A DNA stretch of 64,000 bases from Pirellula sp. (lineage in GTDB: Bacteria > Planctomycetota > Planctomycetia > Pirellulales > PNKZ01). The notes under the pieces were generated by a model. The model searched no databases. It worked only from the letters and a program-made list of their open reading frames with translations, and was not told where the DNA came from. This document shows, in pieces, positions 20,484 to 29,678 of the stretch. Position 1 is the stretch's first letter, and each line of letters opens with the position of its first letter. The DNA lies in assembly GCA_013822735.1 (NCBI GenBank), contig PNKZ01000009.1, forward strand, positions 1 to 64,000, written 5' to 3'. The translations under genes and the position numbers were made by a program.

Positions 20484-22259
20484 TCAATTGAGATTGGGAA
20501 ACACCGGACCGGCCGCGAGGCTCCGAAGCGCATTGGCGCCCGTCGGCGGTTCGATTTGCCAGGGAACCAGCGCAACGCGAGGTACGAAGTGTTGCACGTG
20601 CTCAATATGTTTCGCTTCTTCCTTTGCCCGCAACGCCAAGAGAGGATTGTTTGTCCCCGTGGCCGCCAGTGACGAATTGACGACCCAAGCCCAGGGTTCA
20701 ATCCCGGCACGGCGCAGGTCGGCTTGCAGGGCTTCGGCCTCCAGCACGGGCGTCGTCTCCGGCAGGGTGACGATCACCATCTTCGTCAGCTTCGGATCCT
20801 GTAGCCGCATCATCGGCGTGACGACGTGCATTCCCTGCGGAAGGTTCCGGACGACATCGCGGTGGTAAGCGCCGGTCGCATCCAAGAGCAGCAAGGTATG
20901 GCCGGTCGGGGCCGTATCAACGACGACGAATTTCTTACGCGATTCCTGCTGCACCCGGGAGAAGGCTTGAAATACCGCGATCTCCTCGGTGCATGGTGAA
21001 CGCAAGTCTTCCTCCAAGAGCGTCTTGCCGGCGGCGTCGAGTTTATCGCCTTTCGTTTCGAGGACGTGCTGTCGGTAACGCTCGCTTTCGGCATGCGGGT
21101 CGATTCGATCCACTTCCAGGCCGGGTAGGTTCATCTCGACGGTCATCGCCAAGTGAGCGGCGGGGTCGGTCGTGGTGAGGTGTACGGCATGTCCCCGTGC
21201 GGCGAGCTCCACGGCAATCGCGGCCGCGATGGTCGTCTTCCCGACGCCTCCCTTACCCATCACCATGATTAGGCCGTGGCCGTCTGCTTCGATTTCGTCG
21301 ACCAAACCGGCGAGCGGCGGTAACGACGGACACGGAACAACAATTTCCCGCGTAGGCGCCAGTAGACTTTCCGGAACCGGCAAAAGTAGGGCTCGCAACG
21401 CCTCGACACCGACCAAGTTGCGCGGTTGTAAGGGAACCAGCTCCGTCGGCAATCTACTCAGCCCCTCCGGTACGTGCCCGAGGACGGCCTGCTCGCGGTT
21501 GCGTAAGGCTTTCGCCAACGGATCCTCGCCGATCGCTTCGGGCATAACGCCGTTCACGACCAAGCGCTGATTCGTGATGCCGAGCGACGCCAACTCGCCG
21601 CTTGTGCGCTCCGCTTCGACGAGCGCTCCCTGTTGAGCGCGTGTCACCAGCACCATCAATGTGTGCTCGGAATTGGCCAACTCGCCCACCGCTTGCGAGT
21701 AACGCTGACGTTGTTTCTCCAAGCCCGAGAGCGGCCCCAGGCAGGACGCGCCGCTTTCATTGTCCTCCAGGAAGTTTGACCAAGCCGTCGGGAGTTGTAG
21801 GAGCCGGAGCGTGTGGCCGGTGGGGGCCGTATCGAAGATGATATGATCGAAGCCGTCGGTGACCGCGTCGCCGGTCAGGAGTCCGGTAAATTCATCGAAG
21901 GCGGCGATCTCGGTCGTGCAAGCGCCGGAGAGTTGTTCCTCCATGCCCTTTACGACGTCCGGCGGTAGCGCATTGCGCACGGGGCCGACGATCCGATCGC
22001 GGTAAGCCTGGGCGGCCGCTTCCGGATTGATATTCAGCGCGAACAATCCGGCGACGTGGGGAATCGCCGTCGGCTCGTGTTCTCCTACCTCGACGCCGAA
22101 GACCTGCCCTAAGTTCGAAGCGGGATCGGTACTCACCAGCAGCACACGCTTGCCACGGTCGGCAAGCGTGACGGCAGCGGCGCAAGCCAGAGAGGTCTTG
22201 CCGACGCCCCCTTTGCCGGTAAAGAACAGATTGCGCGGCGAGGTATCCAAGAACTTCAT
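20484..22259 (-). CDS. arsA: ArsA, arsenite-stimulated ATPase
   Basis: A 591-residue tandem ATPase. The frame runs to 22415, but ATG 22259, with AGGATGAG just upstream, starts the family N-terminus. Two P-loops, GKGGVGKT at 15-22 and 335-342, mark the A1 and A2 halves; DTAPTGHT signatures occur at about 143-150 and again in A2. Cys114, Cys173 and Cys423 fall almost exactly where the three metalloid-binding cysteines of E. coli ArsA lie (113, 172, 422, by recall). It should energise an arsenite efflux pump in the cytosol and take arsenite from ArsD, encoded 71 bp upstream. No ArsB or Acr3 pump gene is in the window, and arsC after it is a stub. Confidence 0.95.
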   Translation of the reverse strand: MKFLDTSPRNLFFTGKGGVGKTSLACAAAVTLADRGKRVLLVSTDPASNLGQVFGVEVGEHEPTAIPHVAGLFALNINPEAAAQAYRDRIVGPVRNALPPDVVKGMEEQLSGACTTEIAAFDEFTGLLTGDAVTDGFDHIIFDTAPTGHTLRLLQLPTAWSNFLEDNESGASCLGPLSGLEKQRQRYSQAVGELANSEHTLMVLVTRAQQGALVEAERTSGELASLGITNQRLVVNGVMPEAIGEDPLAKALRNREQAVLGHVPEGLSRLPTELVPLQPRNLVGVEALRALLLPVPESLLAPTREIVVPCPSLPPLAGLVDEIEADGHGLIMVMGKGGVGKTTIAAAIAVELAARGHAVHLTTTDPAAHLAMTVEMNLPGLEVDRIDPHAESERYRQHVLETKGDKLDAAGKTLLEEDLRSPCTEEIAVFQAFSRVQQESRKKFVVVDTAPTGHTLLLLDATGAYHRDVVRNLPQGMHVVTPMMRLQDPKLTKMVIVTLPETTPVLEAEALQADLRRAGIEPWAWVVNSSLAATGTNNPLLALRAKEEAKHIEHVQHFVPRVALVPWQIEPPTGANALRSLAAGPVFPNLN

Positions 22260-22330
22260 GATGCTCATCCTGTTAGGAAAATCGAATCTGCCGGTGACGG
22301 CCTCGCCGCCGTCTTGCTTCCACATCCGCT

Positions 22331-22702
22331 TCAGCAACTCTTCGGTCCGCCGCAGCAACCGCCCGGTCGGTCGACGATCTGAGGTAAGTAGGAGGCGGTA
22401 TCGGGCGCCATCCACACCGACAACACCTCGCGCGTCGGGTATCCATTTTGGCTGACGAGACGACCATCGACGATGATCGCGGGCAGGAAGTCTGTCCCTT
22501 GCGTCGACAGGAGTTTATGGATTTCCGGATTCTCGACGAATGCTTGCGGTTCTTGGGCCAAGTTGAACCGCTCGACGCGGTGTCCTTGCGTCTTGAGCCA
22601 TTCCAAATCGGCGGCGAAACGGGGCAGCACGGGATCCACATCCGGCCCGCAGACACCGGTCGAGCAACACATCGGCTTGTCGAAAACTTGCATTGTCTTC
22701 AT
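22331..22702 (-). CDS. arsD: ArsD, arsenite metallochaperone
   Basis: A 123-residue protein starting at ATG 22702 behind a strong AAGGAG; the longer frame upstream is not coding. Cys12-Cys13 and Cys18 (MCCSTGVCG) reproduce the metalloid site of ArsD, and FLPAIIVDGR and the thioredoxin-like pattern fit the family. The C-terminus carries extra vicinal cysteines (GGCCGG, Cys116/117, and Cys123). It delivers arsenite to ArsA, whose gene follows by 71 bp on the same strand. Confidence 0.95.
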   Translation of the reverse strand: MKTMQVFDKPMCCSTGVCGPDVDPVLPRFAADLEWLKTQGHRVERFNLAQEPQAFVENPEIHKLLSTQGTDFLPAIIVDGRLVSQNGYPTREVLSVWMAPDTASYLPQIVDRPGGCCGGPKSC

Positions 22703-22793
22703 GAACTTGTCTCCTTGCGAAATGAGCAACACTTCTTGTGCGGGCGAATACAATTTCAATGGGCGGACACGGCTAAATGCCAGTTTTGGTTTA

Positions 22794-23408
22794 TTACCGG
22801 TTTTTGCGCAGCACGGCAAAAGCGAACTTTTGCAGCTTGCCTGCGGGCGTGTGGTGGATGTGCTCCATTTCTTGAACGAGCTGAAAGTCAGAGCCAAACT
22901 CGGCGCTCAATCCGGCAGCATCGTAGCGGCACACTTCCAGACCGCTGCACTTTTCGGGACCGTCGGGAGCAAACGTGCCGATGACCAGGTGGCCGCCGAC
23001 TGGAATCGTTCGCTTTGCCAGGGCAACGTACTTCCGTCGGTCTTCCGGATCGGTAAGAAAATGAAACACGGCTCGGTCGTGCCAAACATCGAAACGACCG
23101 ACATCGCCCACTTGCGTCACGTCGCCGACGATCCATTGGACTTGTCGCCCGACTTCTCCTAACCTCCGGCGCGCGTGCTCCAAGGCCGTTGCGGAAACAT
23201 CAAGAACGGCCACGGGCGAATAACCGTCGGCCAGGAGCCGATCGACCAGCTGCGACGCTCCCCCGCCGACGTCGATGACGCCGCTGCCCCCGGACGCAAC
23301 GCTCCGAATGAGCTTCCGTGATACTTCCGGTTCGGCCTCAAACCAACTGACGTCCGTGGTGCCTTTGGTGCGATAAACGGTTTCCCAGTGCTCACGTCGG
23401 TCGAACAT
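22794..23408 (-). CDS. Class I SAM-dependent methyltransferase
   Basis: A 204-residue enzyme starting MFDRREHWETVYRTKGTTDVSW, the standard opening of a common small methyltransferase family, so ATG 23408 is preferred to the longer frame. VIDVGGGASQLVD (about 43-56) is the SAM-binding glycine loop, VLDVSATALEHA the acidic strand 2, and DVWHDRAVFHFL the motif III region. It does not have the cysteine set expected of arsenite methyltransferase ArsM, so it should not be called arsM. It lies between a rhodanese and arsD on one strand. Thiol, sulfide or metalloid methylation would fit the setting but is a guess. Confidence 0.82.
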   Translation of the reverse strand: MFDRREHWETVYRTKGTTDVSWFEAEPEVSRKLIRSVASGGSGVIDVGGGASQLVDRLLADGYSPVAVLDVSATALEHARRRLGEVGRQVQWIVGDVTQVGDVGRFDVWHDRAVFHFLTDPEDRRKYVALAKRTIPVGGHLVIGTFAPDGPEKCSGLEVCRYDAAGLSAEFGSDFQLVQEMEHIHHTPAGKLQKFAFAVLRKNR

Positions 23409-23506: not shown

Positions 23507-23908
23507 TTATCGGCCCGCTTGGGGGAAGCCGGCTTCGAGCAACTCGTCGTAGCCTTGCGTCAGCGGGCGAAGGTCGCGGCCTGTCGCACGCAGCAATTGC
23601 GCGGCCGTCTGCGAACGAGCCCCCGCGGCGCAGTGAAGATAGATGATCTTCTCCGGCGGGGCGACCGTCGCCAAGGCCTGTGCGGAAACGCCGTTCTCGA
23701 TGCGCGAGAGCGGCAGAAGTCGCGCGTCGCGGAGGTGACCGTCGTTCCACTCGCCAACTTCGCGGACGTCAAGCAACACTGCCTTGCCGGCGGCAAGATC
23801 ACGCTTCACGGCACCGAGGTCCGCCGCCGCTGCCGGAACCGCCGCGAAGCCCGTCGTTAAGGCCAAGCCAATAACTACCAACGCCCATTGAAACTTGCCG
23901 AACTGCAT
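23507..23908 (-). CDS. Periplasmic rhodanese-like protein
   Basis: A 133-residue single-domain rhodanese with an N-terminal signal peptide (ALVVIGLALTTGFAAVPAAAA). VLLDVREVGEWNDGHLRDAR is the CH2A-type segment and LHCAAGARSQ places the catalytic Cys93 in a six-residue loop, typical of sulfurtransferases. It should carry sulfane sulfur as a persulfide outside the cytoplasm. In the island it lies immediately after the sulfide:quinone oxidoreductase gene, consistent with accepting the persulfide or polysulfide that enzyme makes. Confidence 0.88.
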   Translation of the reverse strand: MQFGKFQWALVVIGLALTTGFAAVPAAAADLGAVKRDLAAGKAVLLDVREVGEWNDGHLRDARLLPLSRIENGVSAQALATVAPPEKIIYLHCAAGARSQTAAQLLRATGRDLRPLTQGYDELLEAGFPQAGR

Positions 23909-23978: not shown

Positions 23979-25178
23979 CTAGCCGAAGCCCCTCAGCATG
24001 GCTCCCCAATAGAGCCGCGGTAGTGCGTAGGCTTTGAGGAGATACATACTGAGCCGCTCCTTCGATTGGTCGAAAGGAAACGTCTCGCTCGGTTCCCCCT
24101 CGTAGTCGAACTCGGCGAGCACCAGCCGACCGTAGCCGGTGACGACGGGACAGGATGTATAGCCGTCGTACTGGGCCGTGAGCGGCTTGCCTTCGATTGC
24201 AGATAAGAGGTTTTCGACGACGACTGGCGCTTGCTTGCGAATCGCCGCTCCGGTTTTGGAAGTCGGCAGTCCGCTGCAATCGCCCAGGCCGAAGACGTTG
24301 GCGAAGCGAGCGTGCCGGAGCGTAAACTTGTCGACCTCGACCCACCCGGTTGGGTTCGCCAGTGGGCTGTTCTTGATGACGTCCGGAGCGCTCATCGGCG
24401 GCGTAACGTGCAGCAAGTCGTACGGAATAACGACCTGCTCCTTGGTGTCGAGATGCTCGAACACGGCTTCTTTCACCGCGCCGCGCACCTCGACCAAGCT
24501 GAGCTTGAACCTCACGTCGATTTGTTTGCGAGCGGCCACCTCTTCCAAGGTCTTGCGGTATTTCTCGACGGCGAAGAGCGAGCCTTGAGCCGAAGCGAAC
24601 ACGACGTTCGATTTCTCCCGCACGCCCGACTTGCGGAAGTGGTCGTCGGCCAAGTACATGATCTTTTGCGGAGCGCCGCCGCACTTCACGGCCGTATTCG
24701 GCATCGTGAAGAGCGCCGTCCCGCCGCGGAAGTTCCGAATGCACTCCCACGTATAATCGACGTAGCGGTAGGCGTAGTTACTGCAGACGGCATCGTGCCC
24801 CAGGCTTTCCCGGAGACCGCGAATCTTGCTCCAATCAATCTGGATGCCTAGTGCGACGACGAGGTGATCGTAGCGGATCGTTCGACCGATGTTCGTGACG
24901 ACGCAGTTGCTTTCCGGGCAGAACTCCGTGATCGACTCCTGAATCCAATCCGTGTCAGGAGGAATGAAGGCAGACTCGGCCCGCTCGCTTTGCTCTTTGG
25001 GAAACACGCCGGCGCCGACCAGCGTCCACAGCGGCTGGTAGTAGTGCTTGGTCGACGGCTCGACGACGGCCATGGTCAATCGTTTGTTTCGTCGGCGTAG
25101 CCGCGCGGCGACGGTAATCCCGGCCGTTCCACCGCCGACGATGAGAACCTGGTAATGCTTATCGAGCGGCATGCTCAT
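23979..25178 (-). CDS. sqr: Type II sulfide:quinone oxidoreductase (mitochondrial SQOR-like)
   Basis: A 399-residue FAD protein. VLIVGGGTAGITVAARL (11-27) is the FAD dinucleotide motif; NVFGLGDCSGLPTSKTGAA is the second FAD signature. Cys166 in AVKCGGAPQKIMY and Cys343 in DGYTSCPVVTGYG are the redox pair of type II SQRs. LLHVTPPMSAPDV and ETFPFDQSKERLSMYLLKA read almost like human SQOR as I recall it. The enzyme oxidises sulfide, forming a persulfide on an acceptor and reducing quinone at the membrane; the C-terminal hydrophobic part (YALPRLYWGAMLRGF) should provide membrane contact. AAGGT precedes the ATG. It is followed by rhodanese and preceded by DsrE-like and exporter genes in the same direction. 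Confidence 0.92.
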   Translation of the reverse strand: MSMPLDKHYQVLIVGGGTAGITVAARLRRRNKRLTMAVVEPSTKHYYQPLWTLVGAGVFPKEQSERAESAFIPPDTDWIQESITEFCPESNCVVTNIGRTIRYDHLVVALGIQIDWSKIRGLRESLGHDAVCSNYAYRYVDYTWECIRNFRGGTALFTMPNTAVKCGGAPQKIMYLADDHFRKSGVREKSNVVFASAQGSLFAVEKYRKTLEEVAARKQIDVRFKLSLVEVRGAVKEAVFEHLDTKEQVVIPYDLLHVTPPMSAPDVIKNSPLANPTGWVEVDKFTLRHARFANVFGLGDCSGLPTSKTGAAIRKQAPVVVENLLSAIEGKPLTAQYDGYTSCPVVTGYGRLVLAEFDYEGEPSETFPFDQSKERLSMYLLKAYALPRLYWGAMLRGFG

Positions 25179-25227: not shown

Positions 25228-25761
25228 TTAGTGGACGGAGATGTAGGCGTAACCGTCTTGCTGTTTGTTGGCGTTGACGGTCATGGCTGACGCCGCGACG
25301 GTGAACTCCACGGCGACCTCGGACAACGCGAACTTGTTGCGGGCCAGCGACTGCCCGCAAACGAAGACTTCGACGCCGTGTTTCTTGAGCTCCCGTACCA
25401 GAGCGAGGTTCGGATTCTTTGCTGCACCGGTCTTGGAAGCGTAGGCGGAATCGTTGAGAGCTCCCTTCGTGGCGGTGCCATGCAACACCAACGCCAGACG
25501 GGCGTCTCCTGGCGCGTGACCGGCTTGAGCGTTGAGATTCAGATACCGAGCCACGCTTTCGAGGCCTTTGAGCACTTCGTCCGGCTTAGCCTCCGACGTA
25601 ATGTCGAAGACGATCTTCATTCCCTGGCGCGGTTGTTCGGCGGCGTCGGGTTGCGGCGCGATCGCCCCATACTCTGCCACGAGCGGGTTGACGAACTTCG
25701 GCTCTTCCACAGCCGCGGCGAAGGTTACGGCACAAATCACAAGACACAACCAATCACGCAT
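25228..25761 (-). CDS. DsrE-family protein, secreted
   Basis: ATG 25761 begins a signal peptide (MRDWLCLVICAVTFAAAVEE); the longer upstream frame is ignored. The 177-residue product resembles periplasmic DsrE-like proteins: MKIVFDITSEAKPDEVLKGLESVARYLN, RLALVLHGTATKG and VEVFVCGQSLARNKF are the usual strands, with one cysteine (VCGQS) in the position used for sulfur transfer. Likely a sulfane-sulfur carrier working with the neighbouring SQR and rhodanese. It starts 11 bp after the TauE/SafE gene. Confidence 0.85.
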   Translation of the reverse strand: MRDWLCLVICAVTFAAAVEEPKFVNPLVAEYGAIAPQPDAAEQPRQGMKIVFDITSEAKPDEVLKGLESVARYLNLNAQAGHAPGDARLALVLHGTATKGALNDSAYASKTGAAKNPNLALVRELKKHGVEVFVCGQSLARNKFALSEVAVEFTVAASAMTVNANKQQDGYAYISVH

Positions 25762-25772
25762 GGCAGACTCCT

Positions 25773-26588
25773 TTAGAACGCAAGATTTCGAGTAATGACA
25801 AACAAGGCGACGAAGAGAATCGCCGCGGCAAACACACGTTGGAGCGTCGGACCTCCCAGGCGAGCGGCTAACCTTGTTCCGACGAACAGTCCAAAAAGGC
25901 TTCCCCCGGCAAACCAAGCGACGATTGACCACGGCATCGTTCGTCCGGCAATCAGCAGCGACGCGATGCCTGACGTACTGATCAACGCGATCACCAGGAG
26001 TGATGTACCGACGGCCCGCTGAATTCCCATGCCGCTAAACAACACGAGTGCGGGCACGATGATGAACCCGCCGCCGACGCCGAACAGTCCCGTCAGCACC
26101 CCCGTCCCTAGACCGACGCCGACCAACAACAACGCGCAACGTGAGTTCCAGTGCAGCACCCCCTGCGGATCACGGCGGCAGACCGGCCCCGGTTCATCGG
26201 GATGGATGATCAGGACGTGCCGTTCCGCAACGTCGCCGGCTTTACTCCACATTCGCACGGCGACCACGAGCATCAGCACAGCGAACAACAATAAGAGCAG
26301 CGCTTCGGGGATCCGGGCGGCGAGCAAGGAGCCGATCGGAGCAGTCGTCATCCCGGCGGCGGCGAACAACAGGCCCGTACGCATTTCGACGAGCCCGAAG
26401 CGCCACCGTTGCAGAAATCCGACCAGAGCCGTCGCGCCGACCGTCACGAGCGACGCGCCAATTGCTTCCCGCGGGTCGACTCCCAAGCCGTACACCAACA
26501 GCGGCACGGCGAAGATCGCCCCTCCTCCCCCGGTGAGTCCGAGGGAGAGGCCGACCACGGCGCCGAGAAGGATGGCCAGAAGAGACAT
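25773..26588 (-). CDS. TauE/SafE (TSUP) family exporter
   Basis: A 271-residue integral membrane protein with about eight hydrophobic segments in two halves. Each half starts with a glycine-rich signature (LTGGGGAIFAVPLLVYGLG near the N-terminus and LFGVGGGFIIVPALVLFSGMG in the middle), the TSUP hallmark. A hydrophilic loop with Cys and His (VCRRDPQGVLHWNSRC) separates the halves. In this setting it probably exports sulfite, thiosulfate or another sulfur oxyanion generated by the persulfide dioxygenase upstream. Genes lie 26 bp before and 11 bp after in the same direction. Confidence 0.9.
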   Translation of the reverse strand: MSLLAILLGAVVGLSLGLTGGGGAIFAVPLLVYGLGVDPREAIGASLVTVGATALVGFLQRWRFGLVEMRTGLLFAAAGMTTAPIGSLLAARIPEALLLLLFAVLMLVVAVRMWSKAGDVAERHVLIIHPDEPGPVCRRDPQGVLHWNSRCALLLVGVGLGTGVLTGLFGVGGGFIIVPALVLFSGMGIQRAVGTSLLVIALISTSGIASLLIAGRTMPWSIVAWFAGGSLFGLFVGTRLAARLGGPTLQRVFAAAILFVALFVITRNLAF

Positions 26589-26614: not shown

Positions 26615-28033
26615 CTACTTGGCGCACGAGGAACCGGAACCGACGGTGCACGATGATGCCGTCGCCGACCACGCACCATAGCCGCCGACCAAGTCGATCA
26701 TGTTTGTGCGGCCGGCTTGCTCCAGCACGCCGCAGGCGATCGCGGAGCGGTAGCCGCCGGCGCAGTGCACCACCACGGGCCGATCGACGGGAACTTCCGC
26801 CAACCGACTGCGCAGGTGATTCACGAGGATGTGCAGGCTCCCTTCGATCACACCCGTCTCGCGTTCCTTGTCCGTGCGGACGTCGAGAACCGCCGGGGGC
26901 GCGTCCGAGGCGAGTTGCTCGGCAAGCGTAGCGGCCGTAATCCGTTCCGTGCGGGCAATGAGCTCGGGTCGCTTTTCCAGAGCCCCGAGTCCGCCCGACA
27001 AGTACCCGGCGATGAGATCGAGACCGATCCGACCGAGTCGCATTGCCGCCTCTTCTTCTTTGCCGTGCTCGGCGACGATCACGATCGGATGCGTACGATC
27101 GAGCATCGTCCCCGCCCAGGTCGCGTACTTACCGGCCAAGCCGATGTTCAGCGAGTTTCGTAGGTGAGCTCCTTCGTAGTCGGCGGCTTCGCGCACGTCG
27201 ACCACTTGCGCTCCCTCGCTTTGCAGCGCGACGACTTCGTCCACCGAAAGCGGCTTCAATTCTTTCGTCAGATTCTCTTCCAGTGTCCCCCGTTCCTTAC
27301 GGTTGAGCATCGCGTCGTAGCCGAAGTAGTCGGGCGCCTCCGGGAGATCGGTCGTCGCCAAGCGGATAAACTCCATCTTGGTCATCGGCGCCAAGGCGTA
27401 GTTGTATTTCCGCTGCGTGCCGATCGTGGAAACGGTGTCTTTGCTGAGATTCTTTCCGCACATCGAACCGGCGCCGTGCGCAGGATAGACCAAGGTCTCA
27501 TCCGGGAGCGTCAGCAGCTTGTTGTGGAGCGAATCATAAAGTTCGCCGGCCAATTCTTCGGCCGTAATGCCGATCGACGCCATGAGGTCGGGCCGACCGA
27601 CGTCGCCGATGAAGAGCGTATCGCCGGTCAACACGGCCTGCGGTTGCTGCGCGTCCTTGGCCAAGTCAAACACCAGAATCGAGATCCCTTCCGGCGTATG
27701 GCCGGGAGTTTCTAGAATCTGTAAGCGGACGTCGCCGAACTCGACGGTCGCACCGTCGCGAGCATGGACAAATTCGTACTCCGCTTCGGCCCGCGCACCG
27801 AGGTAAATCTGCGCACCCGTGCGGTCGCGAAGCTCGATATGTCCGGCGATGAAGTCGGCATGGAAGTGCGTGAGGAAGACGTACTTGATCTGATAGCCGC
27901 CGGCCTCGGCGTCTTTCAAGTATTGATCCACATCGCGTTGCGGGTCGACGATCGCGGCGACCTTCGTCTTATCGTCGGCAATGAGGTACGAGGCGTGCGC
28001 CAAGCAGGCGAGATAGTATTGCTGCAGTTTCAT
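26615..28033 (-). CDS. Persulfide-dioxygenase-like MBL hydrolase fused to two rhodanese domains
   Basis: A 472-residue fusion starting at ATG 28033. Residues 1-250 are a metallo-beta-lactamase domain with THFHADFIAGH (His56, His58, Asp60, His65), ETPGHTPEG, LTGDTLFIGDVGRPDL and YPAHGAGS, the pattern of ETHE1/BLH-type persulfide dioxygenases that oxidise glutathione persulfide to sulfite. Two rhodanese domains follow. The first (about 270-355) has VIVAEHGKEEEA where the catalytic cysteine loop should be and is probably inactive. The second has Cys424 in VVHCAGGYRS and should be active. The fusion couples sulfur oxidation to sulfur transfer. Linked to TauE/SafE 26 bp downstream. Confidence 0.92.
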   Translation of the reverse strand: MKLQQYYLACLAHASYLIADDKTKVAAIVDPQRDVDQYLKDAEAGGYQIKYVFLTHFHADFIAGHIELRDRTGAQIYLGARAEAEYEFVHARDGATVEFGDVRLQILETPGHTPEGISILVFDLAKDAQQPQAVLTGDTLFIGDVGRPDLMASIGITAEELAGELYDSLHNKLLTLPDETLVYPAHGAGSMCGKNLSKDTVSTIGTQRKYNYALAPMTKMEFIRLATTDLPEAPDYFGYDAMLNRKERGTLEENLTKELKPLSVDEVVALQSEGAQVVDVREAADYEGAHLRNSLNIGLAGKYATWAGTMLDRTHPIVIVAEHGKEEEAAMRLGRIGLDLIAGYLSGGLGALEKRPELIARTERITAATLAEQLASDAPPAVLDVRTDKERETGVIEGSLHILVNHLRSRLAEVPVDRPVVVHCAGGYRSAIACGVLEQAGRTNMIDLVGGYGAWSATASSCTVGSGSSCAK

Positions 28034-28081: not shown

Positions 28082-28660
28082 TTAGCGGGCGCAGCAAGAC
28101 TTCGCGCAGGCCGCGGGAGCAGAGCAGGATTCCCGGACTTGATTCCAAGGCATGCGGGCCAAGCACATCGCCATGCCGCAGGTGTCGGTGACGCCGGCGA
28201 AGATCAATCCGGCGCCGACCAAGGCGGAAAGTCCGATCCAGAACGGATGTATCAGCAAACCAAGTACCGCTCCGACGAATACGAGCGTGCCGGCGGCGAT
28301 ACGTACCTGCCGTTCGAGCGAGATCGCCTTCTTGCCGCGTACCAACGGCAGCCCCGCCTGCTCACAAGCCAGCGTTCCCCCGTCGACGTTTATGACCTGG
28401 GAATATCCGGCCGCCGCGAGTTTTTCGCAGGCTTGCTTACCGCGGCTTCCGCTGCGGCAGATGACATAGAGCGGTTTTGCCCGCTCACCGCCCGTTTCCG
28501 CACGCAACGTCGAGGGGTCGAGCCGATCGAGCGGTATGTTGCGAGCAGCCGCTACATGTAGCTCGCGAAACTCCGCCGGAGTGCGAACGTCGATCAAGTC
28601 CAGCGGTTCGCCTCGGCGACAGAGAGCGTTGAGCTCCTGAGGGGTGATAACGGCGGTCAT
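28082..28660 (-). CDS. Rhodanese + DUF2892 membrane protein
   Basis: A 192-residue protein starting at ATG 28660 behind AAAGGAGA. Residues 1-110 are a rhodanese with Cys68 in VICRSGSRGK. Then two hydrophobic segments (IAAGTLVFVGAVLGLLIHPF and LSALVGAGLIFAGV) form a DUF2892 domain, ending with VTDTCGMAMCLARMPWN and a cysteine-rich tail (SCSAPAACAKSCC). Rhodanese-DUF2892 fusions occur in sulfide and sulfane-sulfur operons and are thought to act as membrane-bound sulfurtransferases. It is the first gene of the long minus-strand run and has one of the two proposed operators just upstream. Confidence 0.9.
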   Translation of the reverse strand: MTAVITPQELNALCRRGEPLDLIDVRTPAEFRELHVAAARNIPLDRLDPSTLRAETGGERAKPLYVICRSGSRGKQACEKLAAAGYSQVINVDGGTLACEQAGLPLVRGKKAISLERQVRIAAGTLVFVGAVLGLLIHPFWIGLSALVGAGLIFAGVTDTCGMAMCLARMPWNQVRESCSAPAACAKSCCAR

Positions 28661-28682: not shown

Positions 28683-28705
28683 CGACATGTCGTGACATTA
28701 CGATA
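28683..28705. promoter_or_regulatory. Putative ArsR-family operator, copy 1
   Basis: Read on the minus strand this is TATCGTAAT, then G, TC, A, CGACATGTC, G. The same 23 bases, with only three differences, occur at 29076-29098 in the opposite orientation in front of the ArsR-family gene. Copy 1 contains ATGTC and GACAT arms and the palindrome GACATGTC. It lies 22 bp before the rhodanese-DUF2892 ATG, so a bound repressor would block that promoter. Inferred from repetition and position only. Confidence 0.6.
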
Positions 28706-28733
28706 CGTTGTACGAAAAAAAATGCTTAGGGTT

Positions 28734-29054
28734 CTAGCTCTTGCCTCCAAAGCGGCCTTCGACGCAGTGCATGATGTCGGCCAAATGCGGTTCGGCGATC
28801 GTGTAATACGCGAATCGCCCCTCCTTCTCACAGGCCAAGAAACCGCAGCGTTGCATCAAGCGCAGATGCTCCGAGGCCATGTTGCTGGGGATTTCGCAGG
28901 CTTCGGCCAATTCCCCGACGGTATACCGCGAAGACAGCAACATCTGCACCATCCGCAGGCGATGGGGATGCGCCAATGTCCGCAAGCACTCGGCCGCTTG
29001 GTCGAGGGCTTCCAGCGAAATTAGCTTCGTCTTAGTTCGGTTTGCGGCGCTCAT
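28734..29054 (-). CDS. ArsR/SmtB-family regulator, probable sulfane-sulfur or thiol sensor
   Basis: A 106-residue winged-helix repressor. ATG 29054 is preferred over TTG 29060 and ATG 29057 because AGGAG is then 6 nt away. LRTLAHPHRLRMVQMLL, VGELAEACEIPSNMASEHLRLMQRCGFL and EGRFAYYTI are the usual dimer, recognition-helix and wing segments. Cysteines are at 23, 53, 70, 75 and 97. Cys53 at the start of the helix-turn-helix and Cys97 in the last helix could form a pair across the subunit, as in the persulfide sensors SqrR and BigR, but no ELCVCDL arsenic site is present. With the SQR genes downstream, persulfide sensing is a better guess than arsenic. Confidence 0.88.
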   Translation of the reverse strand: MSAANRTKTKLISLEALDQAAECLRTLAHPHRLRMVQMLLSSRYTVGELAEACEIPSNMASEHLRLMQRCGFLACEKEGRFAYYTIAEPHLADIMHCVEGRFGGKS

Positions 29055-29071
29055 CATCAACTCCTACGGTC

Positions 29072-29099
29072 AATATATCGTAATATCGCGACATGTCAA
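29072..29099 (-). promoter_or_regulatory. Promoter with overlapping operator (copy 2) of the ArsR-family gene
   Basis: On the minus strand a perfect TTGACA (29099-29094) and TATATT (29077-29072) are spaced by 16 bp, upstream of AGGAG and the regulator start. The 23-bp element shared with 28683-28705 occupies 29076-29098, from inside the -35 box to the -10 box, so binding would exclude RNA polymerase. This fits negative autoregulation. Confidence 0.6.
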
Positions 29100-29300
29100 C
29101 AAGACATTTCTAGCGATTATCGAGCGGAATTGGCAACTGCCGACATAACATCCTGTTGTCCAAGGCATTACAAACGCCGGATAGACGCTTTGCCCGGGCT
29201 CCGGCCCATCTGCGGCAAGAATTTGACGCAATCCTGAACGTCGTCGATCTTGAAGTGAGGCATGGTTCGCAAACTCGCGATTGCTTTTGGAGATTCCGCG

Positions 29301-29678
29301 ATGAATTGGTCGCAGCTGTTACTCTGCTTGGCGATCGGCGGAGTTGCCGGTTCCCTCAGCGGCATGGTCGGTATCGGCGGCGGAATTGTCGTCGTTCCCG
29401 CTCTCGTGTTTTTCCTCGGTATGTCGCAGCATGCAGCCCAAGGTACGACGCTGGCGATGATGGTGCCGCCGATCGGAATCTTGGCGGCATGGACCTATTA
29501 TCGCCAAGGCTTCGTCAATTACCCGGTTGCACTGTGGGTCGCAGTGGGTTTTGTGTGCGGCGGCTTATTTGGAGCACGTTTGGCCGTCGTCTTGTCGGAA
29601 GTCGTGTTGGAACGTGTCTTTGCCGTTACGTTGATCCTCGTCGGCGTCAAGATTCTATTTCGCCATGCGCTGGCCTGA
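29301..29678 (+). CDS. Half-size TauE/SafE (TSUP) family transporter
   Basis: ATG 29301 follows GGAG by 8 nt and is preferred to the start at 29262. The 125-residue product has four hydrophobic segments and one TSUP signature (GMVGIGGGIVVVPALVFFLGMS). Full TSUP proteins have two such halves, so this would have to dimerise or is a naturally short form; it ends with a normal hydrophobic segment and not at an obvious break. It is transcribed away from the ArsR-family gene, so it may share the same regulatory region. Confidence 0.8.
   Translation: MNWSQLLLCLAIGGVAGSLSGMVGIGGGIVVVPALVFFLGMSQHAAQGTTLAMMVPPIGILAAWTYYRQGFVNYPVALWVAVGFVCGGLFGARLAVVLSEVVLERVFAVTLILVGVKILFRHALA

Follow-up and report, generated by a model that had tools for sequence, protein, structure and literature searches.

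A conserved dyad as the very probable operator of an autoregulated ArsR-superfamily repressor at planctomycete sulfur genes

The 20-bp dyad ATRTCG-N8-CGAYAT stands on both sides of an ArsR-family regulator gene in the window, the whole 64,000-nucleotide stretch of Pirellula sp. DNA that was analysed, and is very probably the operator of that regulator, which would act as an autoregulated sulfur repressor. We read it in this way because the dyad is kept with the regulator gene, holds a fixed register within the promoter, and recurs at sulfur genes. An earlier note on this DNA, made from its letters, had proposed a specific operator for the encoded regulator, and cross-genome conservation, promoter position and other sulfur operons lend that claim strong support. 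Sequence comparison supports the dyad, its promoter register and its association with both the regulator and sulfur genes, and the regulon would very probably be one of sulfide and persulfide detoxification in planctomycetes.

The starting point was a pair of 23-mers at 28684-28706 (+) and 29075-29097 (−), in which 20 of 23 bases are identical, as the earlier note had said; the shared sequence is GACATGTCG[T/C]GA[C/T]ATTACGATA[C/T]. They are separate sites with a gap of 368 bp, where 370 bp had been given, and their opposite orientation holds for the strands as aligned but means little because the site is near-palindromic; the genes downstream of both lie on the minus strand. Similarity alone is modest evidence, since 3 of 300 dinucleotide-shuffled versions of the 551-bp region alone reached an identity of 20/23 somewhere, in a test that counts self-palindromes too, and it is therefore the genome-wide count and conservation that decide whether the 23-mers are functional. 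With up to three mismatches, the pattern GACATGTCGYGAYATTACGATAY was found at the two 23-mer places only in the 6,882,029 bases (6.88 Mb) of the organism's own genome, and at no place (0) for the reversed control. A weight matrix built on 30 upstream sites from other genomes (the 35 non-redundant ones minus L011 and L041 from the own genome, and minus L029, L059 and L060) gave the two sites, termed O1 and O2, the two highest scores in the 64-kb window, 35.8 and 31.1 bits, the next score being 4.1 once shifted overlaps of the two were set aside. With one mismatch allowed, ATRTCG-N8-CGAYAT is too loose to be informative across a whole genome (86 matches in that of the organism itself vs 7 in the control), and CG-rich coding words are the presumed source of the excess. 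A functionless chance similarity or a recent duplication would agree with the shuffles and with a genome holding just two copies, but conservation at fixed positions across genera and beyond the phylum already contradicts it, and we give it practically no chance of being correct; a chance repeat was rejected on the genome-wide count, the conservation at regulator genes and the matrix ranking.

Cross-genome comparison places the conserved element at window positions 29075-29094 and 28687-28706. The regulator search covered 392 genomes of the phylum, with one additional scan of genome contigs, and gave 58 regulator genes (the window's own, a paralogue on contig C25 and 56 others, many of them close kin) with at least 46% identity to the window regulator within the matched part. 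The set comprises 50 of the 52 best phylum places, down to E 5.9e-32, and 8 from the other search; G321 C1:407403, G283 C1:1349451 and all places weaker than E 5.9e-32 were omitted. Within 120 bp upstream of the regulator, the dyad occurred with no mismatch at 34 of the 58 genes, with one at 7, with two at 4 and with at least three at 13. At most one mismatch was thus seen at 41/58, a count that includes many close kin, compared with 0.12 per set in shuffles; no upstream dyad within two mismatches was found at 12/58 (13/58 in a slightly narrower 120-bp scan). Between 30 bp before and 150 bp after the stop codon, it was intact in 16 cases, had one mismatch in 11 and more in 31, and the 27/58 with at most one mismatch compare with 0.04 in shuffles.

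The upstream logo, TTGACATRTCGNNANNTTNCGATATATT, came from 35 non-redundant loci, thinned from the 46/58 pre-selected at two mismatches or fewer to the dyad, and the downstream logo, a T-tract followed by ATRTCGTMANNTYNCGAYAT, from 29 loci thinned from the 42/57 with at most three. Strong logo positions are dyad-symmetric, including the A and T at inner positions 8 and 11. The smaller elements that had been singled out within the 23-mers fared less well: the palindrome GACATGTC is not conserved in relatives and falls across the left half-site, and the ATRTC-2-GACAT inverted repeat is not kept as such, its half-sites being wrong in detail. Both were rejected as half-sites for want of conservation in the upstream logo. 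Conservation extends to two of four Desulfobacterota relatives (L007 and L009), where the upstream site persists with one mismatch although the next long gene is DUF3373; in these genomes it is the regulator, and not sulfur genes, that the site accompanies. In the other two (L006 and L008), the 120-bp upstream scan found no kept site, and a near match in L008 lies about 50 bp ahead of a second copy of the regulator.

O1 (ATGTCGCGATATTACGATAT; 29075..29094, minus strand), located by comparison and by the matrix scan, fills the spacer of the regulator promoter P1 (TTGACA-16-TATATT; 29072..29099, minus strand). That the first site overlaps this promoter had been proposed before, and a separate promoter scan arrived at it independently, with 11 of 12 consensus bases; relatives keep the same register.

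The genes that follow on the minus strand give the regulator its sulfur company. Directly after O2 comes a gene for a rhodanese with a YgaP-like transmembrane protein (28082..28660; PF00581, PF11127), followed by a protein of metallo-beta-lactamase (MBL) fold with two rhodanese stretches (26615..28033), for which domain matches suggest a persulfide dioxygenase-like function. Further domain matches identify a member of the TauE/SafE sulfite exporter family (25773..26588), a DsrE-domain protein of uncertain start (25228..25932), a sulfide:quinone oxidoreductase (SQR)-like protein (23979..25178), whose best NCBIfam match is the selenoprotein subtype of type III SQR at 242 bits, below the cut-off of 525, and a rhodanese (23507..23908). 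A same-strand downstream homologue of rhodanese-YgaP, MBL-rhodanese, TauE, SQR or DsrE was present, within the stretch of DNA compared for each, at 42 of 57 distinct loci besides the window. No downstream sulfur gene was found at L005-L009, L037, L042 (which meets a contig end), L044, L050, L051, L057, L081, L087, L088 and L090; in L088 the next gene is a Sulf_transp gene, and L057 has rhodanese-type matches upstream of it on the same strand.

The link to sulfur genes also appears away from the regulator. Exact copies of the refined pattern ATRTCGNNANNTNNCGAYAT number 75 and are spread over 44 of the 392 phylum genomes (reversed control, 6). The pattern occurs in 33/42 genomes whose regulator match reaches E<=1e-30 vs 11/350 others, a comparison that is uncorrected for kinship and uses a pattern partly derived from these genomes; the exact pattern is missing in 9 of the 42. 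Regulator matches account for 46 of the 75 places (one, in G036, about 2.3 kb off), and 21 lie elsewhere, in 20 loci that were fetched for carrying the pattern away from regulator matches and played no part in deriving it. The remaining 8, all in genomes with no regulator match at E<=1e-30, fall outside the locus comparison. A search for the motif in front of sulfur genes of related genomes had been suggested as a check, and here it found the dyad at sulfur genes in 15 of the 20 fetched loci (14/19 with L145 left out). All 15 show the same promoter register, with hexamers that share 4-6 of 6 bases with TTGACA and 5-6 of 6 with TATAAT, read on the strand facing the sulfur genes, although one base of the first hexamer and, for the most part, three of the second are already dictated by the pattern.

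These sites stand at SQR with DUF1641 (L126 and L128), rhodanese-YgaP (L127, L129 and L130), strings with MBL-rhodanese, SQR and DsrE (L131, L133, L135, L136, L138, L139 and L140), MBL with DsrE (L142) and a DsrE protein (L141). Pfam identifies the first gene of the strings as TauE in L133 and tblastn does so in L131 and L140; in L135, L136, L138 and L139 the assignment comes from look-alike N-termini. In L145, the dyad stands before a distant regulator (37% identity), followed by a fusion of pyridine-nucleotide-disulfide oxidoreductase, rhodanese, TusA and DsrE domains. In five of the 20 loci the site is not beside a recognised sulfur gene: L132 has two sites in or beside other open frames, L134 has one inside a transporter-like frame, that of L143 is near a cytochrome c-type gene, that of L144 is unrelated, and the fifth is L137. 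There, in one planctomycete, the dyad precedes an HlyD/AcrB-type (RND) efflux operon (L137:6055-10684) with an in-register TATAAT and a TTTAGA; this operon is possibly a non-sulfur member of the regulon.

The regulator gene (28734..29060, minus strand) encodes 108 residues from its TTG and 106 from the ATG at 29054, the third start codon of TTG-ATG-ATG, from which we number. The protein belongs to the ArsR/SmtB superfamily by family profiles and by its winged-helix model: it matches Pfam PF12840 and PF01022 above their cut-offs and NF033788 at 74.4 bits vs a cut-off of 55, and the predicted model (pLDDT 93.4, from 55 sequences) has helices at 14-27, 30-39, 46-53 and 57-69, two strands and a helix at 91-102, which is the superfamily order alpha1-alpha2-alpha3-alpha4-beta1-beta2-alpha5. 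Its five cysteines, correctly counted in the earlier note and including Cys53 and Cys97 in this numbering, are residues 23, 53, 70, 75 and 97 (25, 55, 72, 77 and 99 from TTG). Among the aligned regulators, Cys23 and Cys97 are each present in 58/58, Cys53 in 57/58, Cys70 in 49/58 and Cys75 in 4/58. The predicted model puts Cys23 in alpha-1, Cys53 at the end of alpha-3, where it is the single cysteine of residues 46-53 and forms no C-x-C of the kind that marks arsenite-sensing ArsR proteins, and Cys97 in alpha-5. This arrangement matches none of those named in a survey of the superfamily as that survey describes them, namely a CXC in alpha-3, alpha-4 ligands, ligands all in alpha-5, an alpha-2/alpha-5 pair, and two proximal alpha-3 cysteines (PMC10509353). 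For the window protein, the curated models of BigR (NF040642, 41.7 bits vs 155), CmtR (NF047906, 42.3 bits vs 150) and TsoR (NF045707, 39.7 bits vs 115) all stayed below cut-off; the BigR model was matched weakly by 55/55 scanned regulators (best E 8.7e-15), its cut-off being compared for the window protein alone. A literature search found no paper that treats both TsoR and ArsR.

What the regulator senses can be weighed against two known kinds of sensor. The earlier note had called it persulfide-type, and the linkage to sulfur genes speaks for that description; an ordinary sensor of the BigR/SqrR/YgaV type, with its alpha-2/alpha-5 dithiol, would account for the gene company, as an ArsR-family regulator stands directly before a rhodanese-YgaP-type gene just as ygaV directly precedes ygaP in Escherichia coli. 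Rhodaneses and sulfur transporters adjoin persulfide sensors generally (PMC10509353), and the 42/57 loci given above show the same linkage. The operator geometry is similar as well, since PMC9774250 reports an inverted repeat with N8 spacing for RcSqrR (ATTC-N8-GAAT) and finds one in the YgaV footprint, and the predicted fold resembles listed HlyU, SqrR and BigR chains (Foldseek TM by query length 0.68-0.76). However, the half-sites are ATRTCG/CGAYAT here and ATTC/GAAT in those operators, and, unlike in YgaV-YgaP, a second operator follows the regulator gene. The dithiol itself is lacking: Cys31 and Cys98 of YgaV, which form a tetrasulfide in E. coli (PMC9774250), align with Gln37 and Gly103, and cysteine occurs at either column in 0/58 regulators. 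Sensor cysteines of the SqrR/BigR/HlyU group (SSN cluster 4) lie in alpha-2 and alpha-5 (PMC10509353), in contrast to alpha-1, the end of alpha-3 and alpha-5 here. The BigR-type dithiol was rejected on the two replaced residues and their absence from all 58 regulators, and with the low NF040642 score an ordinary sensor of this type is highly improbable.

Sensing of arsenite or a soft metal through Cys23, Cys53 and Cys97, with the sulfur genes serving metal(loid) detoxification, is less remote but still unlikely. The superfamily itself and three conserved cysteines that could give a trigonal thiolate are in its favour, as is the presence of ArsD and ArsA downstream in the same gene string and on the same strand. 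Among known systems, the SmtB/ArsR metalloregulators share with the window protein the general model NF033788, whose cut-off it passes, and they provide its best match among solved structures in sequence as well as in fold, 8qkf (SmtB of Mycobacterium smegmatis). Metalloregulators of the SmtB/ArsR kind have an alpha-5 D-x-H ... H-x-x-E/H spacing, and none was seen by eye in the window regulator, which also differs from them in an alpha-3 with a single cysteine in place of CXC and in keeping company with sulfur genes, not metal transport. Moreover, ArsD/ArsA were near 1 of 57 distinct other loci (L079; 9 of the 57 with about 3 kb of sequence each), and most other places with the pattern adjoin sulfur genes. 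In the window, ArsD and ArsA (20484-22897, minus strand) come after the sulfur genes, ArsD being a metallochaperone gene of uncertain start (22331..22897).

A reactive-sulfur signal is the most likely inducer because the targets are sulfur genes, and this gene company gives us moderate confidence in it. Sensing may then proceed through a different cysteine set, Cys23/53/97. From the comparisons above we infer binding, repression, inducer, cysteine chemistry and the action of O2, as follows. A repressor dimer would bind ATRTCG-N8-CGAYAT; at O1 it would exclude RNA polymerase from P1, because the dyad fills the promoter spacer, and so shut off its own gene. Entry to the rhodanese/dioxygenase/TauE/SQR gene string would be controlled at O2, where the repressor would either cover a second, non-consensus promoter or stop read-through polymerase from P1 as it leaves the conserved T-tract. 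Accumulating reactive sulfur species would modify Cys23 and Cys97, perhaps with Cys53, and the modified repressor would leave both operators, allowing the regulator and the detoxification genes to be made.

How O2 might act is best considered from its surroundings. O2 (GTATCGTAATGTCACGACAT; 28687..28706, minus strand; one mismatch to the dyad) lies between the regulator stop and the rhodanese gene; the 23-mer does precede this gene, as had been noted, by 23 bp and not 22 bp, with the gene start at 28660. Where present, O2 is mostly 10 to 29 bp past the regulator stop, and in many loci just before a Shine-Dalgarno-like sequence of the following gene. With at most two mismatches it was found in 29/35 distinct loci in which a sulfur gene follows the regulator by at least 40 bp and in 0/5 in which the gap is shorter (with L031 and L096 placed, like L033, among the gaps of about 52 bp, and each duplicate pair, L029/L094 and L030/L095, taken as one locus). 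A run of eight T on the coding strand (28715..28722, minus strand) ends 8 bp before O2. Relatives keep it: among 21 non-redundant loci with O2 at two mismatches or fewer, a tract of at least five T ends 5-13 bp before O2 in 17 (2.9 in shuffles) and exactly 8 bp upstream in 15, and it is absent in L003, L004, L005 and L028.

This arrangement fits either a roadblock coupled to the T-tract or a weak second promoter with its −10 element in the centre of O2. A roadblock would stop read-through polymerase from P1, which would stall where the T-tract makes the RNA-DNA hybrid weaker; this mode is plausible, although we put it somewhat below an even chance. The absence of O2 where genes nearly abut agrees with it, and the promoter scan of the window found no sigma-70 promoter at O2. 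The T-tract is not in general an intrinsic terminator, because no conserved hairpin precedes it in the 21 loci and none does so in the window, and that meaning was rejected; L012 alone has a clearly stable hairpin before the tract (z −2.8). Against the roadblock, O2 positions 6-11 are often −10-like (T at 6 in 16/21, A at 7 in 8/21, and T at 11, which is also part of the dyad, in 19/21), which together with the T-tract in the place of a −35 element could make a weak promoter.

Taken with the operator reading, these features could mark a new line of ArsR-superfamily sensors for reactive sulfur. Present in planctomycetes and some Desulfobacterota, its members would use Cys23/53/97 (alpha-1/alpha-3/alpha-5) in place of the alpha-2/alpha-5 dithiol and would control their sulfur operon through two operators, one in the promoter spacer and one a T-tract-coupled roadblock. 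We put this forward tentatively, as a possibility. The literature search, mostly without subscription journals, found no paper on such a planctomycete regulator, and nothing relevant was among the matches listed for ATATCG with ArsR. The dyad offers a testable operator sequence and regulon for planctomycete sulfide handling. If persulfide is sensed without the known dithiol, more than one set of cysteines would have brought ArsR proteins to persulfide sensing, and a whole group would escape annotation that relies on the alpha-2/alpha-5 pair.

Several smaller observations concern the regulator's neighbours. In Desulfobacterota relatives, the regulator is followed, as next long gene, by a DUF3373 gene (L007:4434-6446, L008:4929-6965 and L009:4401-5975), and L008 carries its second regulator copy about 600 bp on; nothing relevant was among the literature matches listed for DUF3373. 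Small DSP-PTPase-like genes directly follow the regulator in two genomes (L087:7754-8323 and L090:6534-7109). Upstream of the window regulator, on the other strand, is a 138-aa TauE-family frame (29262-29678, +) that matches positions 122-236 of the 237 in the profile, its C-terminal half, and is possibly a truncated or half-size transporter. The own genome also holds a second regulator copy on C25 (L041; C25:55354-55641), about 80% identical to that of the window, with an operator (C25:55699-55718) in a TTGAAA-16-TATAAT-like promoter and a rhodanese-YgaP gene 27 bp after the regulator without O2, so that one genome has two similar putative repressors with the same operator half-sites.
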